Positions 11,859 through 59,121 of a stretch of DNA of 60,830 nucleotides are shown here, one piece after another. How positions within the stretch are numbered: position 1 is the stretch's first letter; every line of letters starts with the position of its first letter. Origin of the DNA: a virus; IMG/VR virus record IMGVR_UViG_3300042503_000802, positions 1 to 60,830 of that record, one strand, 5' to 3'. A program made the position numbers and the translations under genes. The notes beneath the pieces are model-generated. The model saw nothing but the letters and a program-made list of their open reading frames with translations, had not been told where the DNA came from and did not search any database.

Positions 11859-11871
11859 TATACTTTTTTAT

Positions 11872-11878
11872 ATAAATA
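11872..11878 (-). promoter_or_regulatory. Putative late promoter -10 element (TATTTAT, minus strand)
   Basis: On the minus strand TATTTAT starts 20 bases before the ATG at 11858, followed by ATAAAAAAG. It overlaps the end of the upstream baseplate gene. Confidence 0.55.
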
Positions 11879-13634: not shown

Positions 13635-13637
13635 AAT

Positions 13638-17513: not shown

Positions 17514-17514
17514 A

Positions 17515-18576: not shown

Positions 18577-18580
18577 ATAT

Positions 18581-20214: not shown

Positions 20215-20227
20215 TAATTTTTATTTA

Positions 20228-21199: not shown

Positions 21200-21200
21200 T

Positions 21201-25583: not shown

Positions 25584-26224
25584 TATTTTTTATTTAAAAG
25601 TTTAATTGGGACACCTACAAAAATTTCAGGGTTATCATCTAATAAAGATTTTACAACTGCACTTTGAGCCCCAAACATTTTATTACTACCAATTGTTAAC
25701 CTATCTCTTACTATTGATCCTGTACCAAATTCATTCATATCTCCAATATTACAATGTCCTGAAATATGAACACCGGGGTTAGTTGTCACAAAATCACCAA
25801 TAACTGTGTCATGACCTACTGTTGTATTTAAATTTAATGTCGTATAATTTCCGATACTTATATTTGTAGTTAAAATACATCCGGGTGAGATAATTCCCCC
25901 AACACCCAGCTTAATAGTGTTATCTAATATTTTGGCGTCTATATCAACAAAAGTTGGTGCGGGAATTAACCCACTATCTAATGCTTTTTGAACTAAAAGA
26001 TTTTTTATTTTAGGACTTCCCACCGCAACCGTAAAAAAGTAATTTGAATCAAATTTCCAATCTTTAACAACAGGATATGAAATTCCGGATATTACAATTT
26101 CATTTTGACCATCATTAAGATCATTAACAAAAATAAAATTTTTAATCTGAGGTTGAGATCTTTTTATATATAAAAAAAACTCTTTTGCTAAACCGGCCGA
26201 TCCTAAAATAACTAAAGTTTCCAT
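25583..26224 (-). CDS. NeuD/PglD-type sugar N- or O-acetyltransferase
   Basis: A 213-residue protein with an N-terminal Rossmann-like part (METLVILGSAGLAKEFFLYI) and a C-terminal left-handed beta-helix of hexapeptide repeats (about 100-195), including GNYTTLNLNTTVGHD with the catalytic His at about 129 region. This is the layout of PglD, NeuD and PerB. PerB acetylates the amino group of GDP-perosamine. It follows the aminotransferase gene by one base, so the two may together make an N-acylated amino sugar. Confidence 0.85.
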   Translation of the reverse strand: METLVILGSAGLAKEFFLYIKRSQPQIKNFIFVNDLNDGQNEIVISGISYPVVKDWKFDSNYFFTVAVGSPKIKNLLVQKALDSGLIPAPTFVDIDAKILDNTIKLGVGGIISPGCILTTNISIGNYTTLNLNTTVGHDTVIGDFVTTNPGVHISGHCNIGDMNEFGTGSIVRDRLTIGSNKMFGAQSAVVKSLLDDNPEIFVGVPIKLLNKK

Positions 26225-26225
26225 A

Positions 26226-27377: not shown

Positions 27378-28069
27378 AGTTTATATTTTTTATAACAATA
27401 ATCTTTATCTTTTAAAATCATAGATTTACTATCATTTATTAGTTTAGTGCTCAAATTATGGTCCCCCATAACAATAATAATATTATGATCATTAACAACT
27501 CCCGGATATCCATATTTAATAAATAACCGATACCATAACTCACAATCAATCATATATGTAACATCCACATCAATTAGCTCTCCCTTTGGAATCAATCCAA
27601 CGCTAGGACATCCTATTGTATTTATACCGTCCAATAAATGAATTCCATTTCCATTTATTCTTGGTATTTTTGGGTTATAAAAAATATCAGTTCCCGATTT
27701 TAAATGTGTAAAACCATTAAGGACCCACTTATGGGTTTTAGTTAACAACATCATATTTCTTAAAACAGAATTATTATTAAAATAATCATCTTGATTCATT
27801 ATTTTAATAAATTCCCCACTTGAATTTAAAATTGCATTATTTGTATTGTGTGCGGGATATCCAATATTGTTTGAGTTTTTAATGTATTTTATTTTATCAC
27901 TTTTAAAATTATAAATTAAATTTTTTACATTGTCACCAGGTGAATGATCTGATACAATAATTTCATAGTCATTATAATCTTGAGATATACAAGATTGTAT
28001 ATTTTTACTTAATAAATGTAGGTTACTGCCATCACTATCATATGATGGTATACAAATTGAAACTTTCAT
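27374..28069 (-). CDS. Glycosyltransferase, GT2 family
   Basis: A 231-residue GT2 enzyme: MKVSICIPSYDSDGSNL at the start, DYEIIVSDHSPGD for nucleotide binding, NIGYPAHNTN, and the metal site in IKIMNQDDYF (QDD near 109-111). The start at 28069 is chosen because it begins directly with the first strand of the fold; an in-frame ATG six codons upstream is possible. It lies two bases after the GT25 gene and overlaps the aminotransferase gene by four bases. Confidence 0.85.
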   Translation of the reverse strand: MKVSICIPSYDSDGSNLHLLSKNIQSCISQDYNDYEIIVSDHSPGDNVKNLIYNFKSDKIKYIKNSNNIGYPAHNTNNAILNSSGEFIKIMNQDDYFNNNSVLRNMMLLTKTHKWVLNGFTHLKSGTDIFYNPKIPRINGNGIHLLDGINTIGCPSVGLIPKGELIDVDVTYMIDCELWYRLFIKYGYPGVVNDHNIIIVMGDHNLSTKLINDSKSMILKDKDYCYKKYKL

Positions 28070-28071
28070 AA

Positions 28072-28701
28072 TTATTTTATTAACCATTTATAATCAGTTA
28101 CTCTATTTTCAATATCACTAAAACTAACTCTCTGAGTTGCAATCATAGGATAAAATGAATAGACGTTTAACGTATTTTGTAACTCAACATAAATAACATC
28201 AAGAGCATTATCACGTTTTTTTATTCTATCATACACTTTACTAATTGATTTACCATTAATTGCAACACAATGAGTACTATATGTTTTATGTAATTTACAA
28301 ACTTTTTCATTAACTATAATTGGGGGTTTTACATTCATGTGAGTATTATGGTTGCCCCCAAAATATAACATATCCCAATCATCGGGTAACATTTTAAAAT
28401 AATCTTCCATATCAATAACTTGATGGTTAAATTCAACATCATCTTCTAAAATTAATATTGATTTATAATTATTTTCTAACGCTTCTTCTAGTATTTTCAT
28501 ATTAGTTAAAACTAATGCCAATCTTGATGGTGTAACAAACCCTGATATGACCTGTGGTAATTCTTTACCGTCAACAGCATTAAATTGATTAATATTTGTT
28601 AATCCGTATTTATTAAACTCTATAAGACATTCTTCCCATCTATCAGATCTTCTTTCTAAATTAATGCAAAATGTTTTATCAAAAAAATCAGTTATTTTCA
28701 T
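28072..28701 (-). CDS. Glycosyltransferase, GT25 family
   Basis: A 209-residue protein of the GT25 (LPS biosynthesis) family. INLERRSDRWEE at 13-24 and the metal site LILEDDVEF at 83-91 are characteristic, as are the LTNMKILEEAL helix and DDWDMLYFGG. GT25 includes beta-galactosyltransferases that modify lipooligosaccharide, and the collagen galactosyltransferase fold group. It overlaps the upstream two-domain glycosyltransferase gene by 14 bases. The link to collagen glycosyltransferases is noteworthy next to the collagen-like fibre in this window, though family membership does not prove such a substrate. Confidence 0.88.
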   Translation of the reverse strand: MKITDFFDKTFCINLERRSDRWEECLIEFNKYGLTNINQFNAVDGKELPQVISGFVTPSRLALVLTNMKILEEALENNYKSILILEDDVEFNHQVIDMEDYFKMLPDDWDMLYFGGNHNTHMNVKPPIIVNEKVCKLHKTYSTHCVAINGKSISKVYDRIKKRDNALDVIYVELQNTLNVYSFYPMIATQRVSFSDIENRVTDYKWLIK

Positions 28702-30079
28702 TTTTAAATATATTATTTTTAGACATTATATATTCATATAATTCTTTCGTATTTTTATTTGCTTCTGTTGACACGGTCCCATCTTTTTCGTGGTGATAGT
28801 AGGTAAACAATGGTTTTGGTATTCTTTTACCAACAAAACCATTATTCATCATTCTAACCCATAAATCATAATCTTCCCATCCTTTCATTTCCTCATCATA
28901 TCCTCCACACATTTCAAAAGATTCTCTTGTAAACATTGAACAATTAACAATAAATGGACCTTGTATTAATCTTTCTTTTGACCATTCAGGTCTATTCTCA
29001 ACCCCACTTATTTGACCAACATGATTTGTATCACAATATACAGGACTAATTTTTTTATCTTTTCTAATAATATTAACACAAGTTTGAATATATTCTGCGG
29101 AGATCATGTCATCAGAATCTAATGGTAAAATATATTCTCCATTTGAATTTTTTATTCCGTTATTTCTTGCGTTTGCCGGACCACCATTTTCTTGATTAAT
29201 AATTTTTATATTAGGGTGGTTAGATAGAGAATTTAATTTATTTATAATATATTCATCTGTAGACCCATCATTAACAATGATTAGTTCAAAGTTTTTATAA
29301 GTTGAGTTGAATACCGACTCAATAGATTTTTGAAACATTTTTCCATAATTATAAACTGGCATAATTACAGAGACCAAAGGAAGTTTTTTGTTTTGGGGAT
29401 TAACCGGTAGGTTATTCTCTAAAATATTAGGTAAGTGATCCTTATAATTTTCAATAAACTTTTCTCTATTTTTATTCCATTGATCGTTCGTCATACCTAT
29501 TGATAGGTGAGTAATTGGGATATTTGAAACTACACCAACCTTAACTCCGTTAATATGATTTTCAAATGAAAATGTGGTATCATAAAAGTGAAACCCCTCA
29601 ACTTCTTCATTGAATGTTGTAAATATTTTTTTCTTATTTATCATCATAAAAACACCATCAATAATAACGGTGTCAATAACTTTGTTTCCAAAAGGATCGT
29701 TATATGATGATAACCATTTTTTACCATTATGTTTGTGGTAAACCTGACCAACCATTTCAGAAGTAATTTCCCACCACATACCAGTAGAAGGATAGTATCT
29801 TGTTCCCGCAACTCCAAGAACCCCAAATTCAGGTCTCTTTGTGAAATGTTCAATAACTCTTTTTGCCCAATATGGTTTTTCAAATATTATATCGTCATGA
29901 CATAAAACAACAATATCATTTAAACTTTCGGACAAAATTTCATTATAAGTTGCAGATAAACATTTATCACCATTATTAATTTTCTCAATGATTTGGACAT
30001 TGTCTAAACCACAAGTTTCTTTTATGTGACTTATAAAATTTGGTTTTGTTGATTTTGTACTATATCCAATCGTAATCAT
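28688..30079 (-). CDS. Two-domain glycosyltransferase (GT2-like plus GT2)
   Basis: A 463-residue protein with two GT-A domains. The N-terminal half (about 1-215) resembles the Glyco_tranf_2_5 type, with VVLCHDDIIFEKPYW around the HDD metal site (61-63) and THLSIGMTNDQW. The C-terminal half (about 233-450) is a classic GT2: LVSVIMPVYNYGKMF, LIIVNDGSTDEY, GGPANARNNGIK, LPLDSDDMIS (321-324), and GWEDYDLWVRM as the acceptor-side motif. It could make a disaccharide unit. It overlaps the dUTPase gene by four bases (ATGA). Confidence 0.9.
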   Translation of the reverse strand: MITIGYSTKSTKPNFISHIKETCGLDNVQIIEKINNGDKCLSATYNEILSESLNDIVVLCHDDIIFEKPYWAKRVIEHFTKRPEFGVLGVAGTRYYPSTGMWWEITSEMVGQVYHKHNGKKWLSSYNDPFGNKVIDTVIIDGVFMMINKKKIFTTFNEEVEGFHFYDTTFSFENHINGVKVGVVSNIPITHLSIGMTNDQWNKNREKFIENYKDHLPNILENNLPVNPQNKKLPLVSVIMPVYNYGKMFQKSIESVFNSTYKNFELIIVNDGSTDEYIINKLNSLSNHPNIKIINQENGGPANARNNGIKNSNGEYILPLDSDDMISAEYIQTCVNIIRKDKKISPVYCDTNHVGQISGVENRPEWSKERLIQGPFIVNCSMFTRESFEMCGGYDEEMKGWEDYDLWVRMMNNGFVGKRIPKPLFTYYHHEKDGTVSTEANKNTKELYEYIMSKNNIFKNENN

Positions 30080-30684
30080 ATTCCTGTACTTCCAAACCCT
30101 TTATCCTCTCTATCTTTCGAGGTAACATTATCCACTTCAGTTAATTCAATCCATTTACCACAAACTACAGGTGTCATAACTGCTTGAGCAATTTTCTGAC
30201 CTTGTTTAATTTCTACGGGATTACTAGTCGTGTTAAACATTATAACTTTTATTTCACCAGTATATCCTTGATCTACAGTGCCGGGAGAATTTAAAACCAT
30301 CAATCCTTGATTTAATGCCAAACCACTTTTTGATCTAACTTGTATTTCATAATTTTCAGGTATATCAAAATGTATTCCCGTTGGGATCAAACCTCTACCA
30401 AAAGGTTTTAATGTGATTGATTCGGTAGAAAATAAATCCATTCCCGAATCTGTTTGGTATGCGTATGATGGGGATGTTGATCCTGAATTAGATTTACTAT
30501 AATGTAATTTAATTGTGGGTTGCATGGATTCCATTGCTCTTTCCAATTCCTCAACATCTAAACCAAATTCTTGGATTATGGAATCATAATCAATTTCTAT
30601 TTCACCATCATCATCTAACGCTGCCTCAAGAGTACTAACTCGTTTGAGCATTTCCTCAAACTCATCAACTTTATTATCGTTCAT
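30076..30684 (-). CDS. dut: dUTPase with N-terminal extension
   Basis: This 202-residue enzyme hydrolyses dUTP to dUMP and keeps uracil out of phage DNA. All five trimeric dUTPase motifs are present: DSGMDL (79-84), RSKSGLA (117-123), GTVDQGYTGEI (135-145), GQKIAQAV (162-169) and DKGFGSTG (194-201). The first 55 residues are an acidic helical extension (DEFEEMLKRVSTLEAAL) not found in standard enzymes (about 150 residues). It shares one base with the exonuclease gene and overlaps the glycosyltransferase gene by four, so it is embedded in the sugar operon. Confidence 0.95.
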   Translation of the reverse strand: MNDNKVDEFEEMLKRVSTLEAALDDDGEIEIDYDSIIQEFGLDVEELERAMESMQPTIKLHYSKSNSGSTSPSYAYQTDSGMDLFSTESITLKPFGRGLIPTGIHFDIPENYEIQVRSKSGLALNQGLMVLNSPGTVDQGYTGEIKVIMFNTTSNPVEIKQGQKIAQAVMTPVVCGKWIELTEVDNVTSKDREDKGFGSTGI

Positions 30685-31403
30685 TATTTTAATTGTTTTA
30701 ATTTTATGATTGCATCAATCAGAACCTCAACATCTCGTTCACAGTATTCCCCAATTTCTTTTAACATACCTTTGTTCCAATAACAATCATGAACTTTATC
30801 TCCCGTTACTTCCCCACCTTTTGGTGTTGGAATATCTAACGCCGAACACATTAAGTCCAATGATCCGATTGCGGTATATGCACCATATTGCCAAACATCT
30901 TTAGTATCAATTGCTTTGATCTCCCAAGGTTTAGTATCATATGATGGTAAAATTGATGATGGTTTTAATCCATTAATAATCATACGTTTAGCAATCATTG
31001 GAATATCAAAATTCTTTAAGTTATGACCACATAAATGGAAATCTAATTTACCACAACGATTTAACAATGTTTGAAGTTCACTTAAAAGTGTTTCTTCATT
31101 ATCGTTTGAGAATGTTTGTTTTTTAACTTCATTCTTATCTGTTACGAAAGCAACACTCACACAAACAATTTTAGCAAATTCAGGGACCAATGCGGTTCTT
31201 GTTGAGAAGATTAAATTCTTTCTTTCGTTTTCATTCTTACCAATCAATTGGTCTTCCGGAAATCTTTTTAAGAACCAATCAAAGTATTTGTCAAATTGTT
31301 CACCTAATCTTGGATATTCTTTTACACAAGTGTCATAATCTTTTGATATTCCAACTGTTTCAATATCAAGGAATAAAATTTTTGTAATTGGTACGTTAAT
31401 CAT
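30684..31403 (-). CDS. 3'-5' exonuclease, PolB-exonuclease-like (DEDDy)
   Basis: A 239-residue protein related to the exonuclease domain of family B DNA polymerases. Exo I is FLDIET (Asp13, Glu15), Exo II is GHNLKNFDIP (126-135), and Exo III is YCERDVEVL (Tyr220, Asp224), the DEDDy arrangement. It could proofread, trim DNA ends or degrade host DNA. It is three bases downstream of the GT-B gene and directly coupled to dUTPase, so two nucleotide-metabolism genes sit inside the sugar operon. Confidence 0.88.
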   Translation of the reverse strand: MINVPITKILFLDIETVGISKDYDTCVKEYPRLGEQFDKYFDWFLKRFPEDQLIGKNENERKNLIFSTRTALVPEFAKIVCVSVAFVTDKNEVKKQTFSNDNEETLLSELQTLLNRCGKLDFHLCGHNLKNFDIPMIAKRMIINGLKPSSILPSYDTKPWEIKAIDTKDVWQYGAYTAIGSLDLMCSALDIPTPKGGEVTGDKVHDCYWNKGMLKEIGEYCERDVEVLIDAIIKLKQLK

Positions 31404-31406
31404 TTT

Positions 31407-32621
31407 TTATTTAATTAAGGATTTGTAAAATTCTGCTCTTTCTTTTGTTACGTTATTAAGATCGTATCTATCTTTAACTGTTTCATATAATCGTTCACCC
31501 AAATCAACTATCATACTTGGGTTTTCTACTAATTTTTTTATATTTTTTGCCCAATCACTATGGTTGTTTGATTCATTTACTAATAATGCATTTCCATCCG
31601 TAAATTGACCTTGGTGTAATGCGTGTTTCAAATCAATCGTATATGGACCCACATTAGAAGCAATTAATGCTTTCTTATAGAATCCTGCCTCAATAACTTT
31701 TAATTGAGATTTCATTCTATTGAATATGTGGTTTTGGATTGGGGCCAATGAGATATCAAATTTAGCGTAGTTTTTTGCGTAAGTTGTAACAGGTCTTGTC
31801 CATACTCTTACATAGTTTTCATTTTCCCACCCAAAAAATTCTTTTTCTTCAAACTTACTTAAGAATTCCTTATATTTTGGTGTTACAATTTTATAATTGT
31901 CGGTGAAAATTTCTTCATATCTTGCCCAAACAGTTTCCTCAGGTTTAATTGCTCTTTGTGTCTGTTGACCTGTTTCCTTATTAATTTCCGTAACCGTACC
32001 TCTTGTATCAAAACCACAAACATAATATTGTAATTTATCTTGTAGTGGAGATAATTTTGAAACAAACCCACTCATCAATTTTAAATCGTGAAGGTGAGAT
32101 GACCCACCTAACCAACCAACTCTTATTTTGTCAGATGATAATGTTTGTTCATTGAACTGTGGATCTTTCGGGTTAATGGCGTTAGCAAATACCTCAACAT
32201 TTTTATTATATTTTCTAATCTCATCTGCAAATAATTTAGTTGTAGTTGTAACATAAGATGCAACCTTTAAATTATCCATAATTTTTTGATGAATTTTATT
32301 TTGTATAATTAATTGGTGTATTGGGTGTTCTTTTGTCGGTAACCAATAATCATCAATATCAACAATTACTATAATACCATTTGATTTTAACCACTCAATC
32401 AATTTTGGTGTCTCTTCATACGTCTGCCCAATATTTCTATGTACGTGTACAATTTGATATTTTTTCCAATAGTTTTGATCCATAACTTTTGGTTCGTAGT
32501 CAATGTCTATATGAAAATCTTCAGGATACATATTTTGTAACATAACATGGGGGTCAACTGACCTAAACTTTCCTACACCAGATTTGTCACTTGGGAGAAC
32601 TAATACATTAATTTTTGTCAT
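31407..32621 (-). CDS. Glycosyltransferase, GT4-like (GT-B fold)
   Basis: A 404-residue protein. The N-terminal domain has INVLVLPSDKSGVGKFRS and IVHVHRNIGQTYEETPK; the C-terminal domain has IRVGWLGGSSHLHDL, a FDISLAPIQNHIFNRMKSQL (partly) and KVIEAGFYKKALIASNVGPY segment typical of donor binding. It would use a nucleotide sugar in the cytoplasm. The start at ATG 32621 is preferred over an upstream non-ATG start 11 codons earlier. It is the first gene of the sugar operon, after a terminator. Confidence 0.8.
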   Translation of the reverse strand: MTKINVLVLPSDKSGVGKFRSVDPHVMLQNMYPEDFHIDIDYEPKVMDQNYWKKYQIVHVHRNIGQTYEETPKLIEWLKSNGIIVIVDIDDYWLPTKEHPIHQLIIQNKIHQKIMDNLKVASYVTTTTKLFADEIRKYNKNVEVFANAINPKDPQFNEQTLSSDKIRVGWLGGSSHLHDLKLMSGFVSKLSPLQDKLQYYVCGFDTRGTVTEINKETGQQTQRAIKPEETVWARYEEIFTDNYKIVTPKYKEFLSKFEEKEFFGWENENYVRVWTRPVTTYAKNYAKFDISLAPIQNHIFNRMKSQLKVIEAGFYKKALIASNVGPYTIDLKHALHQGQFTDGNALLVNESNNHSDWAKNIKKLVENPSMIVDLGERLYETVKDRYDLNNVTKERAEFYKSLIK

Positions 32622-32680
32622 AATAAAATATAAATTTATTAGAAATATAATCAATTAATAGATTAATATCAACCCCAAAA

Positions 32681-44241: not shown

Positions 44242-47200
44242 ATGGGATTTCAACGACTGACGGATAGGACAATTGCCACAGGTGTATCACTTAATGATTT
44301 AATACATATCGTTATCACTGGTGACACGTCCCAAAATCCGGCAGGATCTTCTTATAAAGCAACAATCGCACAAGTAGGTGCGGCAATCTCAAGTGTTGGC
44401 ACATCAGGTACTAATGGTACATCAGGTACAAATGGAACCAGTGGTAATAATGGAACATCAGGAACAGACGGAACATCAGGGACAGATGGTACTTCGGGTT
44501 CTGATGGAACTTCCGGATCTAACGGAACAGATGGTACTTCAGGTACTAATGGAACGAATGGGACGAATGGATCAGATGGAACTAGTGGTTCATCAGGATC
44601 TTCCGGAACTGACGGTTCTTCGGGAACTAATGGATCTTCCGGAACGAACGGTTCTTCAGGTACCAACGGAACATCAGGTACTAATGGGACATCGGGAACT
44701 GATGGAACAAACGGATCCTCAGGAACTAATGGTACCGACGGAACTTCAGGTACAAATGGTACTAATGGAAGTTCTGGAACAAATGGGACGGATGGGTCAA
44801 ACGGAACCAACGGAACTTCAGGGACTAACGGAACTTCAGGGACTAACGGTACTTCAGGAACAGATGGTACGAGCGGAACAGATGGTACAAGCGGAATTTC
44901 AGGAGTAAACGGAACTAGTGGTACAAATGGTACTAGCGGTACAGATGGTACAGATGGTACAGATGGTAGTTCAGGAACAAATGGTACTAGTGGAACAGAT
45001 GGAACTAGCGGTACCGATGGGACAAGTGGAACTAACGGAACAGATGGAACTAGCGGTACTAATGGAACTAGCGGAACAGATGGAACAAGCGGTACAGATG
45101 GAACAAGCGGTACAGATGGAACAAGTGGTACAGATGGAACAAGCGGTACAGATGGAACAAGCGGTACAGATGGTACGGATGGTTCAAGTGGAACTAATGG
45201 TACAAACGGAACTAGTGGTACCGATGGAACAAGTGGTACCAATGGAACAAGTGGTACAGATGGAACTTCAGGTACGGACGGAACTTCAGGAACAGACGGA
45301 ACTTCAGGAACAGACGGAACTTCAGGAACTAACGGTACAGATGGAACAAGTGGTACTGATGGAACAAGTGGTACTGATGGGACTTCAGGGACAAATGGAA
45401 CAAATGGTACTAGTGGAACTGATGGAACAAGCGGAACAGATGGAACTAGTGGAACTGATGGTACTTCAGGAACGGACGGAACTAGCGGAACTAATGGTAC
45501 GGATGGAACTTCAGGGACTAATGGTACGGATGGAACTTCAGGGACTAATGGTACAAATGGAACTTCAGGAACAAATGGTACTAACGGAACAAACGGAACG
45601 AATGGTACATCGGGAACAAACGGTACTAATGGAACGGATGGAACGTCAGGAACTAATGGTACCAATGGAACGTCAGGAACTAATGGTACCAATGGCACTA
45701 GCGGTACAAATGGAACTAATGGTACAAATGGAACTAGCGGAACTGATGGCACAAGTGGAACTAACGGAACTGACGGTACTTCAGGAACTGACGGTACTTC
45801 AGGGACAAGCGGAACAGATGGTACTAATGGGTCTTCAGGGACTGACGGGACAAGCGGAACAGATGGAACAAATGGGTCTTCAGGAACAAACGGCACGGAT
45901 GGTTCAAGCGGAACAGATGGTACTTCAGGTACTGATGGAACAAATGGATCTAGCGGAACCGATGGAACGAGTGGTACTTCAGGTACAGATGGAACTAGCG
46001 GCACTGATGGTACAAATGGTAGTTCGGGAACTGATGGAACAAATGGTTCAAGTGGAACGGATGGGACTTCAGGTACAAATGGTACAAATGGTACAGATGG
46101 AACTTCAGGAACCAACGGTACAGACGGAACATCAGGTACTAATGGAACGGATGGTTCAAGCGGAACAAATGGAACAGATGGTACTTCAGGTACTAACGGA
46201 ACGGATGGTACAAGTGGAACAAACGGAACGGATGGAACTTCAGGGACAGATGGAACATCGGGAACTAATGGTACTAATGGAACGAACGGAACAGATGGTA
46301 CGAGCGGAACTAATGGAACAGATGGTACAAGCGGAACTAATGGAACAGATGGTTCAAGCGGAACTAATGGAACAGACGGAACTTCGGGGACAGACGGAAC
46401 GAGTGGGACAGATGGAACTAGTGGAACAAACGGTACAGACGGAACTTCGGGGACTAACGGGACAGATGGTACGGACGGAACTAGCGGAACTAATGGTACG
46501 GATGGTAGTTCGGGCACAAACGGTACAGATGGAACTTCAGGAACAAACGGAACGAATGGTACTGACGGAACTAGTGGTACTGACGGAACTAGTGGAACTG
46601 ACGGTACTAGTGGAACTGACGGAACTAGTGGGACTGACGGAACTAGTGGAACTAATGGTACTGACGGAACTAGTGGAACGGATGGAAGTTCAGGAACAGA
46701 CGGAACTAGCGGTACAAACGGTACGGATGGAACTTCAGGTACGGATGGAACGTCAGGAACGGATGGAACGTCAGGAACGAATGGTACAAACGGAACTAAT
46801 GGTACCGATGGAACTAGCGGTACGGATGGAAGTAGTGGTACAGATGGAACAAGTGGTCTTTCAGGTGTTGATGGTACTGATGGAACTAGTGGTACTGACG
46901 GAACTGATGGGACTTCAGGAACAAACGGAACAGATGGTACTAGCGGTACTGACGGAACTAATGGAACGTCGGGAACTGACGGAACTTCAGGAACAAACGG
47001 AACAGATGGTACTAGTGGTAGCGACGGAACCAGCGGAACTAATGGTACGGATGGGTCAAGTGGAACAAATGGTACTTCAGGGACTAATGGTACAGACGGA
47101 ACATCAGGAACTAATGGAACAGATGGGTCAAGTGGTACTAATGGAACTTCAGGAACCAACGGAACAGATGGTACGAGCGGAACAGATGGCACGAGCGGAA

Positions 47201-50200
47201 CAGATGGCACGAGCGGAACAGATGGTACAAGCGGAACAAACGGTACAGATGGTACGAGCGGTACAGATGGCACGAGCGGAACAAATGGTACGAGCGGAAC
47301 AGACGGAACGAGTGGGACAGATGGAACTAGTGGAATATCCGGAGTAAATGGGACTTCAGGTACCAATGGAACAAACGGATCCTCAGGAACCAATGGAACA
47401 AACGGAACAAACGGTACAGATGGAACATCAGGAACCAATGGTACAAATGGAACTTCAGGAACAAATGGAACCGATGGAACATCAGGTACAAACGGAACTA
47501 ATGGAACATCAGGTACAAACGGAACTAATGGTACAGATGGTTCAAGTGGAACAAATGGGACTGACGGAACTTCAGGTACTAATGGTACAGATGGTTCAAG
47601 TGGAACAAATGGTACAGATGGTTCAAGTGGAACAAATGGTACGAACGGAACGGATGGAACGGATGGAACTTCAGGAACAAATGGAACTGACGGGACTAGT
47701 GGAACAAATGGTACGAACGGAACGGATGGGACTTCAGGAACCAATGGAACAAACGGAACCTCAGGAACAAACGGAACCTCAGGAACAAATGGTACAAACG
47801 GTACGAATGGAACTAACGGGACCTCAGGTACGAATGGAACTTCAGGTACGAATGGAACAAATGGTACGAACGGAACGGATGGAACTTCAGGTACAAACGG
47901 ATCCTCAGGAACCAATGGTACTGACGGAACAAACGGTACGAATGGAACTAATGGGACAGATGGTACAAGTGGTACTAACGGAACAAATGGAACTTCAGGT
48001 ACGAATGGTACTAATGGAACATCGGGAACTAATGGTACGAACGGTACTAGCGGTGTTAATGGTATTTCAGGTGGTGCTGTTTATTTCTTTAACGAATCAG
48101 TAACACAAACCCCTTATAAAGAATTTTCACCAATACCGACATCAGGGTCGCAACAAACAGTTACGGTTACTATTGCGAATGGTGTAACATCAACTATTCA
48201 ATCATATTTAACACCCTCAACTTATCCGAATGTATCAACCATACCTGCGGGAATTTGGTCTTTCTTCTTACACGCGTATAAAGAAAACAATAATGCAAGT
48301 TTTGATATATTCTGTGAAGTTTATTCAAGAACAACAGGTGGGACTGAAACTTTATTATTTTCAACAGACCCAGCACCTGTAACAACAAATTCACCAAACC
48401 CATCAATGGTATTATCTGATGGATTTCAAGGAGGATTTTCAATCAATACAACAGATAGGATATTTGTTAAAGTTCGAGCTACAAATACCTCAAATCAATC
48501 ACATACAATTACTTTCGTAACCGAAGGTACAACTCATTATTCATATGGTCAAACTACGTTAGGTATAATTAATGGAACAAGTGGTTCTTCAGGAACTAGC
48601 GGTACTAATGGTACGAACGGAACTAATGGGACTTCCGGTACTAATGGAACCTCAGGTACGAACGGAACTAACGGTACTTCAGGTACGAATGGTACGAATG
48701 GATCGTCAGGTACTAATGGAACAAACGGAACATCAGGAACAAACGGTACTTCAGGAACAAACGGTACGAATGGTACAAACGGAACTTCAGGGACTAACGG
48801 AACTAATGGTACGTCGGGGACTAACGGTACTAACGGTACTAATGGAACTTCGGGTACGAATGGTACGAATGGAACTTCAGGTACAAACGGAACGAATGGT
48901 TCAAGTGGTACCAACGGTACTTCAGGGTCAAGCGGTACTGATGGAACATCAGGAACCAATGGTACAAATGGTACGTCAGGGACTAACGGAACTAATGGAA
49001 CTTCGGGTACCAACGGGACTAGTGGAACAAACGGTACGAATGGAACAAACGGTACGAATGGAACTAACGGAACTTCAGGAACAGATGGAACTAACGGAAC
49101 AAATGGTACTAATGGTACGTCAGGTACGAATGGAACCAACGGTACTTCGGGTACTAATGGAACTTCAGGAACAAATGGGACTAACGGTACTTCAGGTACA
49201 AACGGAACTAATGGTACTAGCGGTACGAATGGAACAAACGGTACTAGCGGTACGAACGGAACATCGGGAACAAATGGTACTAACGGAACTAATGGAACGT
49301 CAGGAACAAATGGAACAAACGGTACGAGCGGAACGAACGGAACTAATGGTTCAAGTGGAACCAACGGAACTTCAGGAACCAATGGTACAAACGGTACTAA
49401 TGGTACAAATGGAACTTCAGGTACAAACGGAACGAATGGAACTAATGGTACAAATGGAACTAGCGGTACGAATGGTACAAGTGGTACGAACGGAACTAAT
49501 GGTACTTCAGGTACAAACGGAACGAATGGAACTAACGGGACATCAGGGACAAATGGTACTTCAGGTACGAATGGAACTTCAGGAACTAACGGAACCAATG
49601 GTACTTCAGGTACAAATGGAACAAATGGTACGAGCGGGACCAACGGAACTTCAGGAACCAATGGTACAAATGGTACTTCAGGAACAAATGGAACGTCAGG
49701 AACTAATGGTACTAACGGAACATCAGGGACGAATGGAACAAATGGTACTAACGGAACTAGCGGAACGAATGGTACTTCAGGGACTAATGGTACTAACGGA
49801 ACAAATGGAACTAACGGTACTTCAGGTACAAACGGAACTAATGGGACAAATGGTACGAATGGAACGTCAGGAACAAATGGTACGAACGGAACGAACGGAA
49901 CTAATGGTACTAGTGGAACAAATGGTACGAACGGGACATCGGGAACAAACGGTACTAATGGAACTAATGGAACGTCAGGAACGAATGGTACAAATGGAAC
50001 TTCAGGTACAAATGGAACTAGCGGCACAAATGGAACAAACGGAACATCGGGTACGAATGGTACATCAGGAACTAACGGTACTAATGGAACGAATGGGACT
50101 AGCGGTACTAACGGAACATCGGGTACTAATGGTACTAACGGTACTTCAGGAACAAACGGAACATCAGGAACTAACGGTACAAATGGAACTAACGGTACTT

Positions 50201-53200
50201 CAGGTACAAACGGAACTAATGGGACCTCAGGCACAAACGGAACAAATGGAACTAGCGGTACAAATGGTACGAATGGATCGTCAGGAACTAATGGGACTTC
50301 AGGTACAAATGGTACAAACGGATCATCAGGAACCAACGGTACTAATGGAACTAGCGGAACAAATGGCACATCGGGTACTAATGGAACTAACGGTACTTCA
50401 GGTACAAACGGAACATCAGGTACAAATGGAACCAATGGAACTAACGGTACGAATGGTACTAGCGGAACAAATGGTACTTCAGGTACGAACGGTACGAATG
50501 GGACAAATGGTACTAACGGATCATCAGGAACAAACGGTACAAATGGAACCAATGGGACATCAGGTACAAATGGTTCAAGTGGTACTAACGGAACTTCTGG
50601 AACAAATGGTACGAATGGAACAAACGGTACGAGCGGTACAAATGGGACTTCAGGAACAAACGGCACTAGCGGTACAAATGGAACGAATGGTACTAACGGA
50701 ACAAATGGTACTAACGGCACGTCGGGAACAAACGGAACATCAGGTACTAACGGTACAAATGGAACTAATGGAACGAATGGTACAAATGGAACTTCAGGTA
50801 CTAACGGAACAAATGGTACCAACGGTACTAATGGAACTAGCGGTACAAACGGAACAAATGGAACCTCAGGAACTAATGGTACAAACGGAACAAATGGAAC
50901 TTCAGGGACGAATGGTACGAACGGTACTTCAGGAACCAACGGAACTTCGGGTACGAATGGAACGAATGGAACGAATGGAACGAATGGTACAAACGGAACT
51001 AGCGGAACCAACGGAACAAATGGTACAAATGGAACCTCAGGAACAAATGGTACAAACGGAACTAGCGGAACAAATGGTACTTCGGGAACCAACGGTACTA
51101 ATGGTACGAATGGAACAAATGGTACAAATGGAACTAGTGGAACGAATGGTACTAATGGAACTAGCGGAACAAATGGTACGAATGGAACTAGTGGAACCAA
51201 CGGTACGAATGGAACAAACGGGACAAACGGAACTAGCGGAACAAATGGAACAAACGGGACAAACGGAACTAGCGGAACAAATGGTACGAATGGAACTTCA
51301 GGAACCAATGGAACAAACGGAACCTCAGGAACAAATGGTACAAACGGTACGAATGGAACTAACGGGACCTCAGGTACGAATGGAACAAATGGTACGAACG
51401 GAACGGATGGAACTAGCGGTACTAACGGTACTAACGGAACAAATGGTACGAATGGAACTTCAGGAACTAATGGTACAAACGGTACTAATGGAACTTCAGG
51501 TACAAATGGAACCTCAGGAACAAATGGAACCAATGGATCATCAGGAACCAATGGTACGAACGGAACAAATGGAACTAGTGGGACTAACGGAACATCAGGT
51601 ACTAATGGGACCAACGGTACAAATGGAACTAGCGGTACTAACGGAACTTCGGGAACAAATGGTACGAATGGAACTAACGGAACATCCGGTACAAACGGAA
51701 CAAATGGTACGAATGGAACTAACGGAACATCCGGTACAAACGGAACTAATGGAACATCAGGGACAAATGGTTCAAGCGGTACCAACGGTACTAATGGTAC
51801 GAGCGGGACCAATGGAACTAACGGTACAAATGGAACTTCGGGAACCAACGGTACTAACGGTACAAATGGAACCAACGGCACTTCAGGAACAAATGGAACG
51901 AATGGTACAAGCGGTACTAATGGAACAAACGGGACTAACGGAACTAATGGTACATCAGGAACTAATGGTACAAATGGGACTTCAGGAACTAACGGTACTA
52001 ATGGAACGAATGGAACTTCAGGTACTAACGGAACAAATGGTACTAGCGGCACGAATGGAACAAATGGTACAAACGGAACCTCAGGTACTAACGGAACAAA
52101 TGGTTCAAGTGGTACCAACGGGACATCGGGGACAAATGGAACTAACGGAACTTCAGGTACAAACGGAACCAATGGAACTAATGGTACTAATGGAACTTCG
52201 GGGACAAATGGAACAAGTGGAACGAACGGTACAAATGGAACTTCGGGTACGAATGGAACAAACGGTACAAATGGAACTAATGGGACTTCGGGTACTAATG
52301 GAACAAATGGTACTAGTGGAACAAATGGTACTTCGGGAACTAATGGTACAAATGGATCGTCAGGTACTAACGGAACAAATGGAACCAACGGTACGAATGG
52401 AACATCTGGTACGAATGGTACTAACGGAACAAATGGAACGTCAGGCACAAATGGTACTAGCGGAACAAACGGAACAAATGGTACGAACGGTACTAATGGT
52501 ACATCAGGTACGAATGGAACTAATGGGTCATCAGGTACAAATGGAACTTCAGGTACAAACGGAACGAATGGAACATCAGGTACAAATGGAACTAGCGGAA
52601 CGAATGGAACTTCAGGAACTAATGGAACTAATGGAACTTCGGGTACTAACGGGACAAATGGAACATCAGGAACAAATGGGACATCAGGAACAAATGGTAC
52701 TAATGGAACTTCAGGTACTAATGGAACATCCGGTACTAACGGAACTAACGGAACGAACGGTACTAGCGGAACTAATGGTACGAACGGTACTAGCGGAACT
52801 AATGGTACATCGGGTACGAATGGAACTTCAGGGACCAACGGGACAAATGGTGCTAGCGGAACAAATGGAACATCTGGAACTAACGGAACTTCAGGTGTAA
52901 GTGGTTTAAATGGGACTAATGGTACCTCAGGAACAAATGGTTCAAGTGGTACCAACGGTACTAATGGTACATCAGGTACGAATGGTACTAGTGGAACAAA
53001 TGGAACTAACGGGACTTCAGGTACGAACGGAACATCTGGAACTAACGGGACTTCAGGAACAAATGGTACGAATGGAACGTCAGGAACAAATGGTACGAAT
53101 GGAACGTCAGGAACAAATGGAACTTCGGGTACGAATGGGACTAATGGTACTAATGGTACTTCAGGTACGAATGGAACAAATGGTTCAAGTGGAACTAATG

Positions 53201-55413
53201 GGACTTCAGGAACAAATGGTACGAATGGAACGTCAGGAACAAATGGAACTTCGGGTACGAATGGGACTAATGGCACTAATGGTACTTCAGGTACGAATGG
53301 AACAAATGGTACTAGCGGAACTAACGGAACTTCGGGAACAAATGGTACTAATGGAACTAGCGGAACAAATGGAACGTCAGGAACAAACGGTACAAATGGA
53401 ACGTCAGGAACAAATGGAACTAGCGGTACGAATGGAACAAATGGAACTTCGGGAACAAATGGTACTAATGGAACTAGCGGAACAAATGGAACGTCAGGAA
53501 CAAACGGTACAAATGGAACGTCAGGAACAAATGGAACTAGCGGTACGAATGGAACAAATGGAACTTCAGGAACAAACGGATCAAGTGGTACAAACGGGAC
53601 TTCGGGGACAAATGGTACAAATGGAACCAATGGAACCTCAGGTACTAACGGAACGAATGGTTCAAGTGGTACAAACGGAACTTCAGGAACAAATGGAACC
53701 AATGGGACTTCAGGTACTAACGGAACAAATGGAACTTCGGGCACAAATGGTACTTCGGGTACTAACGGTACTTCAGGAACAAATGGAACGAATGGTACTA
53801 GCGGAACAAATGGTACATCAGGTACTAACGGAACTAGCGGTACAAATGGTACCAACGGTACAAATGGAACATCAGGAACCAACGGTACTAATGGAACTTC
53901 AGGAACAAATGGAACCAACGGTACTTCTGGTACAAACGGCACAAATGGAACTTCAGGAACTAACGGAACATCAGGAACCAATGGTACTAATGGAACTTCA
54001 GGAACCAATGGTACTAATGGAACGTCAGGTACAAACGGAACAAGTGGAACAAATGGAACTTCAGGAACCAATGGTACTAATGGAACTAGCGGTACTAACG
54101 GAACATCAGGAACCAACGGTACTAACGGAACATCAGGAACCAACGGTACTAACGGAACATCAGGAACCAACGGTACTAATGGAACTTCAGGAACGAATGG
54201 TACTTCAGGAACGAATGGTACAAACGGAACAAGTGGAACCGATGGTACTAGCGGAACCGATGGAACATCGGGAACTAACGGAACCAATGGAACGTCAGGG
54301 ACTAACGGTACTAGTGGAACAAACGGAACATCAGGGACTAACGGAACAAATGGTACATCAGGAACTGATGGGACATCTGGTGTAAGCGGAGCTGCCGGAA
54401 CATCAGGTACTAATGGTACTAATGGGACATCAGGTACAAATGGAACTAATGGAACCAACGGTACTAATGGGACATCAGGTACAAATGGAACTAATGGAAC
54501 CAACGGTACTAATGGGACATCAGGTACAAATGGAACTAATGGAACAAATGGTACGAACGGTACTAATGGGACATCAGGTACAAATGGAACTAATGGAACA
54601 AATGGTACGAACGGTACTAATGGGACATCAGGTACAAATGGAACTAATGGAACCAACGGTACTAATGGAACTTCAGGAACAAATGGGACCAACGGAACAA
54701 ACGGAACTAATGGAACTTCAGGAACAAATGGTACAAATGGAACAAACGGAACTAATGGAACTTCAGGAACAAACGGTACATCAGGTACCAATGGTACTAC
54801 CGGAACAAATGGTACATCAGGTACAGGATTTACTTCAATTTCTCCAACAACAGATAATAACATATTAACCGCTAATGGAACCGCAAATTCGGCAAACTCA
54901 GAACCTAACTTAACATTTAATGGAATAACAAACCTACTAAATGTTACGGGAAGTGCAACAATATCAGATCACTTCCAAGTTACAAGAACATCAGGATATT
55001 ATACAATCAACACTGATCCTGTATCAAGATTAGCGTCAAATGGTGACCATTATGGTGAATTATTATCTATTGGTGATGTAGGATTTAGTCCCGCCGTTGG
55101 ACAAGTTAGATATTTATCATCATCCAACACTTGGTTGTCGGCAGATGCGGATAGCGCATCTGCATCAAGAAACTTACTTGGTATATGTACTAATGCAGTG
55201 GCTTATAACAGAGGTATGTTAGTAAGAGGTTACTTTAAAAATACGTCTTGGTCATTTACTATTGGTGCTCCGGTTTACCTATCGACCGCAGGAGATACTC
55301 TAACATCCACTCAACCAACGGGAACCGCCGATATTGTGAGAGTTTGCGGATACGCAATTGCAACTGACGAAGTTTACTTTAACCCTTCACAAGATTGGAT
55401 TGAGTTAGTATAA
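44242..55413 (+). CDS. Giant collagen-like tail fibre protein (3723 residues)
   Basis: A 3723-residue protein. Residues 1-52 are an N-terminal attachment-like domain ([20 protein letters not shown]). Residues 53-1277 are Gly-x-y triplets of [13 protein letters not shown] type. About 1278-1444 form a non-repeat beta domain ([18 protein letters not shown] to [12 protein letters not shown]). Residues 1445-3527 are again Gly-x-y, now almost only GTN and GTS. The last 196 residues resemble a C-terminal domain common in aquatic phage fibres ([46 protein letters not shown]). Gly at every third residue suggests a trimeric collagen-like helix. Thr is at x and Asn, Asp or Ser at y, with almost no Pro. 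It is likely a very long host-contact fibre. Confidence 0.9.
44398..48072 (+). repeat. Collagen-like Gly-Thr-Asp/Asn/Ser repeat, first block
   Basis: Nine-base units GGN ACN (GAY, AAY or Ser codon) run without a frame break. Asp is frequent. Synonymous codons vary freely between units. Rare breaks of the pattern are GISGVNG near 44890 and 47335 and GLSGVDG near 46855. Confidence 0.95.
53335..53568 (+). repeat. 117-base tandem direct repeat within the fibre gene
   Basis: Two adjacent copies (53335-53451 and 53452-53568) encode 39 residues each and differ only in the last base of the unit. This is much closer than the general repeat background, so it is a recent in-frame duplication. Confidence 0.85.
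54415..54657 (+). repeat. Tandem 45/54-base repeats within the fibre gene
   Basis: Five adjacent units of 45, 45, 54, 54 and 45 bases each start GGTACTAATGGGACATCAGG and share nearly all bases. The 54-base units add one triplet group. They mark recent unit expansion close to the C-terminal domain. Confidence 0.85.
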
Positions 55414-55423
55414 TTTATTTAAT

Positions 55424-56122
55424 ATGCCAACAGTAAGTAAAGTTAATGACGTTTTATGTGCTAATATCAGCAAAGTTGATGATATACTTAAAGCAAATGC
55501 AAGTAAAATGGATGACATTGATTTCTGTTCACCAACACCAACAGTGACACCAACAAGAACACCGGGAGGAAGTCCTGTACCAACACAAACTATGACACCA
55601 ACAAGAACCGCAACTCCAACAAGAACACCACCTAATACGCCGACTAATACACCAACTAATACACCAACAAGAACTGTAACACCAACGACGACCCCAACAA
55701 AAACACCACCTAGTACACCAACAATGACACCTACACCAACAAGAACTCCTCCGGCAACACCGGCATCAACACCACCCGTTACTCCATCAAATACCTCGGC
55801 TCCAACGGCAACACCAACGGCAACATCGGCCGGATCAAGTCCAACGCCAACACCAACTCCGACTCCAACACCTTGTGTTGAAGTTTGTTGTGAAAGAGAA
55901 TTATGTTATGGTCCGGAATGTGGGGAAGCTTGTTCTTGTAATACAACGGCAGTATATTACCTACACTTACCTTGTGGTGGTACGTGTAATTTGGCAAATG
56001 CCGATGGAATATTTGATGATAATCTTTGTAAAATTCCGGCGAGAGATGCCTTTTATAGTGACGGAACTGATTGTTACTATTGGGACGGATCCTCTACACT
56101 AGCATATCAAGGTCCTTGTTAA
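55424..56122 (+). CDS. Thr/Pro-stalked protein with Cys-rich C-terminal domain
   Basis: A 232-residue protein. Residues 1-36 hold three related heptad-like units ([32 protein letters not shown]). Residues about 37-150 are a Thr/Pro/Ser stalk. The last 80 residues contain about a dozen Cys ([20 protein letters not shown] and [14 protein letters not shown]), probably in disulfides or metal sites, and end in [15 protein letters not shown]. It follows the fibre gene by 10 bases and ends before a terminator. It may cap or anchor a fibre. No family is recognised. Confidence 0.7.
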
Positions 56123-56157: not shown

Positions 56158-59085
56158 TTATTTTCTATTATCAATATAGATAATTATTTCGTCATACCAT
56201 TCAAGAAATCTTTCGGTCCACAATTCCCATTTGATATCAATATTATCAACAGAGAATATTTGGTAATTATCAAAGTTAGGTAATACATTATCTCTAAAAT
56301 GTCTGAATTTTTCTCTACTTTCATCCGTTCTTAAGTGCCACTCACCTGAAATCTTTTTAACATTATTCTTAATGAATTCAACGTTTTCATCTCTAAAGAT
56401 TTCATATTCACCACTTTCACAATCTGTTTTTAAGAAATCAATTTTTTCAATTCCATAAAGATCCAATAGTTTTTTAAAATTTATAGATTCCATATGTGTT
56501 TCCCCACCAAAAAGTTCATTAGATTCAACAATCCCGTTTGTAAAACCAATACCTTTATTTATTTGTGTTACAGGATAACCTAAGGTGTTTTTAACTAAAG
56601 TTTTAAATTCGGAGGTACTTGGTTCAATACAGAATACGTGCTTTGGTTTTTTATGTAAAATTGATTTTGTAAAAGGACCAACACTTGATCCAATATCAAA
56701 TACAATATCACCTTCCTCAACCTCAAAAAATCTTTCATAAACCTTATCAATAAAAATTTCATTGTACATAACTTCTTTATGATATTGGGCATTAATGATA
56801 TCTGTATTCATCCAACCCCAATCAAAAACAGGAAGATTTTCTTTTTTAAGAATTTTATTTATTTCAGAAATAACCATTTGAGATGTAATTTGTTTTGTAC
56901 ATTCAAACATTCTATTGGTACCTTTATGTAATGGACACCAATTCCAATCTCCCGCATCTAATTTTTCCGAATTAAAACATCCGTGACAAACATTTTCATT
57001 AATAACTCTATATGTGTCTAAAGTTGTTTCTGCCCATTTCTCACTAAATCCTGATATTAAAACTATCGGTAATTCACAAGCCCACGCTAACCAAGATAAC
57101 CCTGATCCCAAACCAATAAAGAATTCGCAAGTAACAAGATCATTAATTACTTTTTGTAGGTCACCCCCTTCAAAAATAGTTACTCCTTTTGGGTAATGGT
57201 TATTCATATACCCATCCCCCTCTTTAGAATAAATCATACATTCGTATCCTAAATTTATAAGATAATCAATAACTTCTTGCCATCCATTTGGGTTATTCCA
57301 ATATTTTGACTGCGCCGTTGAGTGAAATCCAATACCGACTTTTTTCTTTTTTGGAACATTTGGTAATTTAAGTTTTGGTTTTATCTCATTATATTCAAGA
57401 CCTAATATATCTGTTGCGGTTTTTTGTAATGGTTGTTTTTTATAATCATTTGGTGTCATATTATAATTTACGGAACCATCTTCATTATAGAACCACCCTA
57501 TTCTATATTGGGCATGAATATTCATAACAACATTTCCCGGATCAACAAATTCAATATTTGGATATTGATCAACAAATAGTTGGTTCATAAATGTCGAGAC
57601 AATTAATTCGCATTTATGTTTTAATCTAAATTCCTCAACATAAGGAATCCAAGCCATTGTATCCCCTAATGATTTTGATCCGAACGATATATAAACTCTT
57701 TTTCCTTCTAAGTTAATTTTATTTTCATAAATCAATTCATCATTTTCCCACACCTCTGTTCTCCAATCTGTATAATATTCTCTATTTAATTTAATCCAAC
57801 TATTAATTGATAACGTATTACTATAAATAAGATTGTCATCACCATCAAACATTTTAATTAAAAACTTATTTTCACTTTGACCTCTAAATTCAAAAAATGG
57901 TTGACACACATAATGTTGTGTATAAATGTAATCATTTTTAATTGGTTCGTTATGTCTTATTTGTTCATTTAGAACAATACGATACATTGACAAAAGGTTA
58001 TCACCAAAATCAGTATCGTTTGGTATGTCATATGTGTGTTCATTATTAATAAGTTTAACTAATTGTTTTGAAATGTCTTCGATCTCACCACTAATTGGTT
58101 TAATGTATTTATCAAACATTCCCATATATTGTGGTAGATTTCTTGTTAATATTTTCATACCATAGTTAATAGATTCTCTAATAACCAAAGGATTACATTC
58201 CCAAGTTGAATTAAACATTAAAACATCGGAGGCTTGCATAAATTTATCAACATCATTTCTTTCACCCCATACTTTAACATTTGATGGTAAGTTCTTCATA
58301 ATCGGACCCCAATAGTCCTCAAAGTTTGGTGCTTGATTTCCAATAAAATGGAATTGAATATCAGGATTAGATTCAACCAAAGTTCTTGCGACCTCAACAC
58401 CCTCACCTTGATTTTTACCACTTGTCCATAATCCCACATTTAATACGTGAGTTTTAAACATATCCAAACCAAGTTCTTCTCTAACTTTTATTTTATGTAT
58501 AAGAGGTAATTGTTTGAAATCACCATAGATTTCATTTTCCGCTAAGATAGGTGTTACTTTGTTTTCATATGGATATGTTGATAGAAATTTCATTGGGGGG
58601 GTATCTTTAAAAGAAACCTCCATATGATATGGTGTTACAAGAGAATAAGCGTCAGGATGTAATTTTTTATCTGATAGTGGGTTAAACCAAATATTATGAC
58701 ACGTCTCAATAATTCTCCAAGTTCTATCGTTAGAGTAAATTTGGTTTAGTAGATCAATTGGAACTTTATTAAACGATTCAAATCCATCAATCATTTCTTC
58801 TGAATGAAGAATATCAATCTTATTGTTTTTTAAGATGTCAATCAACATATTTTTTTTGTCAACCTCATCAGTTCCGCCTAACGTGAAGAAGTGATTATTT
58901 CCTAATAATTTTATAATTTGATCTCTTTGTACAACATATGTTGAACTGAATTGAGAGTATTCAACTAAAAATATCTCAATCTGATCTTTATATTCTTGTA
59001 ATGATTGAATTCTTTTTAAGACGAATTGAGGCATACCCCCTGTTGATAGGTGGGGTGTTAAGTATAATAATTTAATCTTTTCCAT
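56158..59085 (-). CDS. Three-domain enzyme: GT-B, TibC/BAHT-like O-heptosyltransferase, FkbM-like methyltransferase
   Basis: A 975-residue protein. Residues about 1-385 are a GT4-like domain (LLYLTPHLSTGGMPQFVLKR, NVGLWTSGKNQGEGVEVA, FNSTWECNPLVIRESINYGM). Residues about 455-760 match the autotransporter O-heptosyltransferase (TibC/AAH) family: VYISFGSKSLGDTMAWIPYV, FHSTAQSKYWNNPNGWQEV, FFIGLGSGLSWLAWACELP, and a four-Cys site CHGC...GDWNWCP...FECTK (Cys700, 703, 717, 729) that binds iron in TibC. Residues about 780-975 are FkbM-like (VFDIGSSVGPF, DFLKTDCESGEYEIF). ATG 59085 is preferred over a TTG seven codons upstream. TibC-type enzymes put heptose on Ser of adhesins. The gene lies between fibre genes, so these are likely substrates, by inference. 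Confidence 0.85.
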   Translation of the reverse strand: MEKIKLLYLTPHLSTGGMPQFVLKRIQSLQEYKDQIEIFLVEYSQFSSTYVVQRDQIIKLLGNNHFFTLGGTDEVDKKNMLIDILKNNKIDILHSEEMIDGFESFNKVPIDLLNQIYSNDRTWRIIETCHNIWFNPLSDKKLHPDAYSLVTPYHMEVSFKDTPPMKFLSTYPYENKVTPILAENEIYGDFKQLPLIHKIKVREELGLDMFKTHVLNVGLWTSGKNQGEGVEVARTLVESNPDIQFHFIGNQAPNFEDYWGPIMKNLPSNVKVWGERNDVDKFMQASDVLMFNSTWECNPLVIRESINYGMKILTRNLPQYMGMFDKYIKPISGEIEDISKQLVKLINNEHTYDIPNDTDFGDNLLSMYRIVLNEQIRHNEPIKNDYIYTQHYVCQPFFEFRGQSENKFLIKMFDGDDNLIYSNTLSINSWIKLNREYYTDWRTEVWENDELIYENKINLEGKRVYISFGSKSLGDTMAWIPYVEEFRLKHKCELIVSTFMNQLFVDQYPNIEFVDPGNVVMNIHAQYRIGWFYNEDGSVNYNMTPNDYKKQPLQKTATDILGLEYNEIKPKLKLPNVPKKKKVGIGFHSTAQSKYWNNPNGWQEVIDYLINLGYECMIYSKEGDGYMNNHYPKGVTIFEGGDLQKVINDLVTCEFFIGLGSGLSWLAWACELPIVLISGFSEKWAETTLDTYRVINENVCHGCFNSEKLDAGDWNWCPLHKGTNRMFECTKQITSQMVISEINKILKKENLPVFDWGWMNTDIINAQYHKEVMYNEIFIDKVYERFFEVEEGDIVFDIGSSVGPFTKSILHKKPKHVFCIEPSTSEFKTLVKNTLGYPVTQINKGIGFTNGIVESNELFGGETHMESINFKKLLDLYGIEKIDFLKTDCESGEYEIFRDENVEFIKNNVKKISGEWHLRTDESREKFRHFRDNVLPNFDNYQIFSVDNIDIKWELWTERFLEWYDEIIIYIDNRK

Positions 59086-59121
59086 ATCGTTAAAAATAAC
59101 AACCAAGTTTAAAAGTTAAAG

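Follow-up and report, generated by a model that had tools for sequence, protein, structure and literature searches.

A three-part phage enzyme with a TibC-like module probably glycosylates a Ser/Thr-rich, proline-free Gly-X-Y fibre protein

We studied a 60,830-nt stretch of DNA from an uncultured virus (IMG/VR record IMGVR_UViG_3300042503_000802, positions 1 to 60,830; the whole stretch is called the window) and therein a gene that joins a GT4-type glycosyltransferase, a module similar to the O-heptosyltransferase TibC and an FkbM-type methyltransferase in one protein of 975 amino acids (aa). Sequence comparisons suggest that this enzyme of a T4-like phage probably glycosylates a fibre protein of the same phage that has Ser/Thr-rich, proline-free Gly-X-Y repeats, i.e., that it would prime, extend and methyl-cap a glycan. 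What is new is a clade of phage and methanotroph modules that is set apart from the autotransporter heptosyltransferases and tied to Ser/Thr-rich Gly-X-Y repeats. The open reading frame (ORF) of the enzyme spans 59106..56158 on the minus strand; its ATG at 59085 opens 975 codons, and the stop codon is included in 56158..59085. The enzyme, its parts and the candidate acceptors are located as follows.

56158..59085, minus strand: fused enzyme gene, 975 aa, in the order GT4, TibC-like, FkbM-like (ORF and profile matches)
57976..59085, minus strand: GT4-type GT-B part, residues ~1-370 (PF00534 and PF13692 above cut-off)
56836..57924, minus strand: TibC-like module, residues ~388-750 (TIGR04414, PDB 4rap/4rb4, residue mapping)
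56161..56835, minus strand: FkbM-type S-adenosylmethionine-dependent methyltransferase part, residues ~751-975 (PF05050 above, TIGR01444 slightly below cut-off)
44242..55413, plus strand: candidate acceptor, fibre ORF of 3,723 aa with Gly-X-Y repeats, two genes from the enzyme (triplet count and clade-wide pairing)
55424..56122, plus strand: Thr/Pro-rich (mucin-like) ORF of 232 aa with a Cys-rich C-terminus, between the Gly-X-Y ORF and the enzyme

A fusion of three enzymes had been proposed in an initial annotation made from the sequence alone, and profile searches of the 975-aa protein give a match above cut-off for each part. The GT4 part is matched by PF00534 (residues 201-350, 37.4 bits vs. 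a cut-off of 26.4) as well as by PF13692, and it carries an EX7E motif (E296-E304) and K224, which are invariant or almost so among relatives. For the methyltransferase part, PF05050 gives a weak match above cut-off (residues 858-932, 27.5 bits vs. 22.7); DIGSSVGPFT is its glycine-rich motif, and the relatives L004 and L002 reach higher FkbM profile scores than the window enzyme. The middle part matches the equivalog profile TIGR04414 (hepto_Aah_TibC) at residues 406-745 with 287.4 bits vs. a cut-off of 200, and phmmer aligns it with TibC (PDB 4rap/4rb4) across residues 405-746 at E 1e-64. The predicted TibC-like character thus stands, while the module starts at about residue 388 and not, as first proposed, at 455. 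Its fold agrees as well: for an AlphaFold2 (AF2) model of moderate quality (pLDDT 69.7, pTM 0.43), the first 21 Foldseek hits are TibC chains with target-normalized TM scores of up to 0.79. A chimera, a frameshift artefact or a chance fusion can be excluded, since independent contigs with 58-74% identity retain this layout.

The candidate acceptor is unusual in composition. Its 3,723 aa hold 1,104 Gly-X-Y triplets (GTN 585, GTS 332, GTD 120, GSS 45), with Thr at X in 94% of them, and the repeats are free of proline. Asn occupies Y in 592 triplets, and the GTNGT arrangement creates hundreds of formal N-G-T sequons that would in principle be open to a cytosolic N-glycosyltransferase. Long ORFs that cross the repeat in other frames (48549-54863 on the minus strand, 48572-52900 on the plus strand, and others) were discarded as by-products of the 9-base period and are not genes.

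Evidence for an enzyme-acceptor relation comes from the pairing of module and repeat across genomes. Within IMG/VR, 114 stretches encode relatives of the window enzyme, of which we kept 80, falling into 35 clusters. Many module loci have a nearby Gly-X-Y ORF that is very rich in Ser/Thr and almost devoid of proline. Among long module-bearing contigs, 12/17 have a repeat no more than about 5 kb from the module (distances read by hand), compared to 4.5 expected if each contig holds two 6-kb repeat genes; five module contigs without a near repeat carry one elsewhere. We also assessed the association independently, starting from contigs gathered by a DNA pattern alone and not from the module. Here, TIGR04414 matches in 23/50 contigs (at least 20 kb) with the Ser/Thr-rich triplet pattern, 22 of them above cut-off and two (G084, G108) also met in the module search, vs. 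0/44 contigs with a Gly-Pro pattern, i.e., proline-type collagen (Fisher test 4e-8, kinship ignored). As a further control, we took 80 random Gly-X-Y contigs with at least 15 triplets each, such that stray runs of 8-9 triplets are excluded. A strong module match is found in 3/10 Ser/Thr-rich contigs (one clipped at the contig end) vs. 0/70 others; a weak match of 20.9 bits in L152 was left out of this count. The suggestion that fibre proteins are the acceptors is therefore supported by a test that began from the repeats, and the acceptor class is likely narrower than first thought, namely Ser/Thr-rich, proline-free Gly-X-Y proteins.

The pairing extends to bacterial chromosomes. A scan of bacterial genome contigs with the full-length alignment gave no match, while the profile of the module alone found 79 loci. 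In a midpoint-rooted tree of 86 rows, a side of 46 rows with the window module splits with support 100/98 from the autotransporter heptosyltransferases including TibC. This side comprises all phage modules but L037 as well as Methylococcaceae and a few others. Counting ORFs with at least four G-[ST]-x triplets by the same rule for both clades, 9/10 bacterial rows of the 46-row side lie within 5 kb of such a repeat ORF (seven of them at 8-127 bp) compared to 0/69 on the other side (Fisher test 5e-11, phylogeny ignored). The neighbour of the module gene in a Methylomicrobium, for example, encodes a protein that consists purely of (GTS)17. In a metagenome-assembled genome (MAG) of Methylococcaceae, the gene immediately upstream of the module gene is for a GTT/GTS protein whose N-terminus is signal-like, and next to the module gene of L429 an SGTSGTAG protein is encoded that starts with a lipobox-like segment. 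Secreted-looking Gly-Thr-Ser/Ala repeat proteins beside a stand-alone TibC-like gene are seen, mainly in methanotrophs, at L423 6917-7780, L425 6878-7759, L427 9181-9882, L428 6850-7800, L424 9118-9426 and L429 9168-9575.

These association counts ignore phylogeny, and their P values overstate the strength of the pairing, because the rows are not independent: most bacterial pairs are from Methylococcaceae, and L421 and L422, which have fused genes, could represent viral contigs within MAGs. Given this, and since the carriers include many large phages of freshwater metagenomes, module and Ser/Thr-rich repeats could co-travel in lineages of such phages, with neither acting on the other. We hold this to be very improbable. 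The pairing recurs in the form of adjacent genes in Methylococcaceae, in a Polaromonas MAG and in the deep branch L429, and it persists among phages although fusion partners and gene order differ.

Next, we compared the active site of the module with that of TibC. The TibC residues D110, T226, K230 and W305 correspond to D475, T590, K594 and W665 of the window enzyme, and this catalytic Asp as well as the Thr, Lys and Trp are invariant in the alignment; three of the four TibC sugar-contact residues are kept in the window module. The four-Cys iron site and the WNWCP segment noted in the initial annotation are indeed present: C700, C703, C717 and C729 of the iron finger are invariant across 37 phage and 79 bacterial rows, and WNWCP is likewise unchanged among relatives. 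Neither loss of the iron-binding Cys nor lack of a TibC/AAH match thus speaks against the assignment. At the tip of the beta-hairpin thumb, Phe368 is invariant in phages, and the window module has a hydrophobic Tyr-Met, as do most phage modules, which a few relatives have lost.

The exception is Arg286 of TibC, which is replaced by V646. This is no alignment slip, since no gap separates the Arg286 column from the next conserved block. In TibC, Arg286 contacts the adenine; the enzyme's preference for ADP-sugars over guanine nucleotides has been attributed to this residue, and its mutation to Ala abolishes activity entirely or mostly (PMC4358343). Arg is found at this column in 1/37 phage modules and 68/79 bacterial homologs. 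When mapped to the tree, it is absent from the 46-row side except for its deepest row, L429, and kept in all rows but two on the side of the autotransporter heptosyltransferases. L429 retains the Arg yet has a repeat neighbour, which suggests that the pairing predates the Arg loss. The sole phage module keeping the Arg (L037 647-1777) is the one placed among the autotransporter heptosyltransferases.

The window enzyme therefore should not be classed as an autotransporter heptosyltransferase, although it passes the TIGR04414 cut-off: both Arg286 and an autotransporter partner were checked, and the Arg is replaced, while the scanned neighbours of the gene include Gly-X-Y, Laminin_G and Fibrinogen_C ORFs and no autotransporter gene. 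That is, it shares with TibC/AAH (BAHT, TIGR04414) the fold, the catalytic Asp, the Thr/Lys/Trp contacts, the four-Cys iron finger, the thumb tip and the profile score. It differs in its separate clade, the missing Arg286, the fusion to GT4 and FkbM parts and the partner, which is a Ser/Thr-rich Gly-X-Y protein instead of an autotransporter. Most likely, the window enzyme works like a protein O-glycosyltransferase of the TibC fold.

Concerning the sugar donor, the window contains the following genes, which may serve the pathway.

16707..32654, minus strand: sugar genes, interspersed with unrelated genes (PhoH, dUTPase and PolB-like exonuclease genes)
20228-21199, minus strand: GMD-like gene
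21964-23124 and 26226-27377, minus strand: DegT genes
23108-24019, minus strand: epimerase gene
24016-24804, minus strand: GT10 gene
24801-25583, minus strand: GT11 gene
28072-28701, minus strand: GT25 gene, besides several GT2/GT4 genes of the region

With its GMD-like and epimerase genes, DegT aminotransferases, GT10 and GT11, the region at 16.7-32.7 kb is of a GDP-sugar type, and no gmhA match representing the ADP-heptose pathway is found in the window. Of the 44 phage records that carry the module, 11 show a strong match to GMD-like genes, and gmhA-like matches occur in 2. Given the lost Arg, the GDP-sugar-type genes and the rarity of gmhA-like genes, a donor other than ADP-heptose, e.g., a GDP-activated sugar, is plausible. 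Of the O-heptosyltransferase activity named in the initial annotation, the TibC family membership thus remains, whereas heptose as the transferred sugar appears doubtful, with the Arg lost in 36/37 phage modules.

The TIGR04414 equivalog score far above cut-off, the lectin-like fibre genes that also flank the enzyme gene and the adjoining Thr/Pro-rich ORF would fit a true ADP-heptose O-heptosyltransferase that acts on a beta-strand-loop fibre or baseplate protein or on the 232-aa protein, with Gly-X-Y not being a substrate. We consider this improbable: it has to cope with an Arg286 replacement in nearly all phage modules while the respective TibC Ala mutant is (nearly) inactive (PMC4358343), with gmhA-like genes in so few records (though a host could supply ADP-heptose), and with a repeat association that it leaves without explanation.

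The same sugar region is relevant for another reading, i.e., that the fused enzyme alters lipopolysaccharide (LPS) or another surface glycan of the host, e.g., against superinfection. Host-surface modification was proposed for glycosyltransferases of the tail-fibre region in pelagimyophages and is the published view of such genes (PMC7029224), and the GT2, GT10, GT11, GT25 and GDP-sugar genes of the window are typical of surface glycans. Nevertheless, we regard it as unlikely. The TibC family acts on protein (PMC4358343), and LPS as a target does not explain why module and repeat pair in phages and as adjacent genes in bacterial chromosomes. It is these chromosomal pairs that speak most strongly against both the host-LPS and the shared-ancestry explanation.

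For glycosylation of the Gly-X-Y fibre, the following course may be envisaged. The enzyme would be made in the infected cell and act before the virion is completed. Its TibC-like module would attach the first sugar to hydroxyl groups of Thr/Ser in the fibre protein (44242-55413), the GT4 part would add a further sugar, and the FkbM-like part would O-methylate and thereby cap the glycan. With dense glycans, a fibre of proline-free triplets could stay extended and soluble and withstand proteases, or its adhesion could be shaped by them. The predicted enzyme activity as well as the acceptor, step order, sugar and benefit for the fibre are what we infer from sequence, just as the earlier suggestion of an enzyme that builds, attaches and methyl-caps a glycan would follow from the domain types.

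A related genomic logic is known from Clostridioides difficile, where SgtA, whose gene adjoins that of BclA3, transfers GlcNAc to Thr of collagen-like GPT repeats (PMC7157674). Both systems have a transferase gene directly by a collagen-like gene and the sugar, for the window enzyme putatively, on Thr/Ser of triplets. SgtA/BclA3 differ by proline-containing GPT repeats and a UDP-GlcNAc donor, such that the likeness is restricted to genomic logic.

Besides the phylogeny-blind counts, some further points weigh against fibre glycosylation by this enzyme. Known acceptors of TibC-type modules are beta-helical and not Gly-X-Y. The TIGR01444 FkbM profile reaches 35.9 bits in the window enzyme, slightly below its cut-off of 37.7. 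No module is seen in 27/50 Ser/Thr-rich contigs, which may be fragments or have another enzyme. Finally, the 232-aa protein is a possible second acceptor: it has a long Thr/Pro (TPT) stretch, its ORF ends 36 bp from the stop of the enzyme gene, and it is without Pfam or PHROG match.

The fused layout, which first appeared to be an isolated oddity, turned out to be found in many phage contigs. The closest relatives with the full GT4-TibC-FkbM layout are L002, L003, L004, L015, L018, L022 and L025. Others show GT4-TibC (L016, L020, L030, L078), GT2-TibC (L068), methyltransferase-TibC (L058) or a stand-alone module (L038). That is, the TibC-like module stays constant while its fusion partners vary. 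A single phage protein of 1,454 aa (L023 7802-12163) has four parts in the order FkbM, DXD sugar transferase, GT4, TibC-like.

An isolate, Microcystis phage Mel-JY01, likewise encodes a protein, of 1,226 aa (WWT39291.1), that joins a GT4, a methyltransferase and a TibC-like part, with a module 50% identical to that of the window and Ser/Thr-rich Gly-X-Y repeats about 3.5 kb from it. It differs in part order (GT4-methyltransferase-TibC) and in its methyltransferase, which is from another PHROG family, and carries the misleading annotation 'methyltransferase FkbM'. In Synechococcus phage DSL-LC02, an FkbM gene (WJZ48257.1) 46% identical to the C-terminal part of the window enzyme adjoins a collagen-like and a mannosyltransferase gene amid tail-fibre genes. 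Here, the TibC-like module is missing and FkbM is fused to radical SAM/SPASM domains; this gene (L083 9485-11635) may encode another fibre-modifying enzyme.

No PHROG family matches the TibC-like module. The literature we searched does not describe TibC-like enzymes for phages or together with collagen-like partners, though accounts elsewhere may exist; it mentions collagen-like and heptosyltransferase together only in an unrelated context and does not name Mel-JY01.

With regard to the genomic neighbourhood, the enzyme gene indeed lies between fibre genes, as stated in the initial annotation. One flank holds the 3,723-aa Gly-X-Y and the 232-aa Thr/Pro-rich ORF, the other a Laminin_G/Fibrinogen_C ORF, with this fibre-type gene starting 37 bp from the outermost start of the enzyme ORF. 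The Laminin_G/Fibrinogen_C ORF (59143-60828) has a lectin-like Laminin_G_3 domain and a Fibrinogen_C domain and runs past the window end. A T4-type late promoter candidate, TATAAATA at 59129-59122 upstream of the enzyme gene, was not used, its count in the window not being above chance. Portal, head protease and major head protein are encoded at the left end; the nearest matches of the major head protein are from an uncultured megaphage, Microcystis phage Mel-JY01 and Flavobacterium immuto phages, and T4-like phages are matched widely. Three minus-strand ORFs of 487, 512 and 643 aa at 10395-15569 have no Pfam or PHROG match.

Glycosylation of collagen-like fibres is a role not previously reported for the TibC-like family, and glycosyltransferases of the tail-fibre region are usually taken as modifiers of host LPS. 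A clade that tracks the repeats provides a concrete candidate enzyme-substrate pair, present in the isolate Mel-JY01 and in cultured methanotrophs. We tentatively extend this, at somewhat less than an even chance, to an unrecognised protein O-glycosyltransferase clade of phages and some bacteria dedicated to Ser/Thr-rich, proline-free Gly-X-Y proteins, where the donor may have switched at the Arg loss (perhaps to a GDP-sugar), phages would fuse interchangeable extending and capping enzymes, and glycans would replace the stabilising role of proline. This could explain the stability of giant proline-free Gly-X-Y fibres such as the one found here. If true, some virion fibres would be large glycoproteins, and the enzyme would be a tool for glycosylating collagen-like materials.
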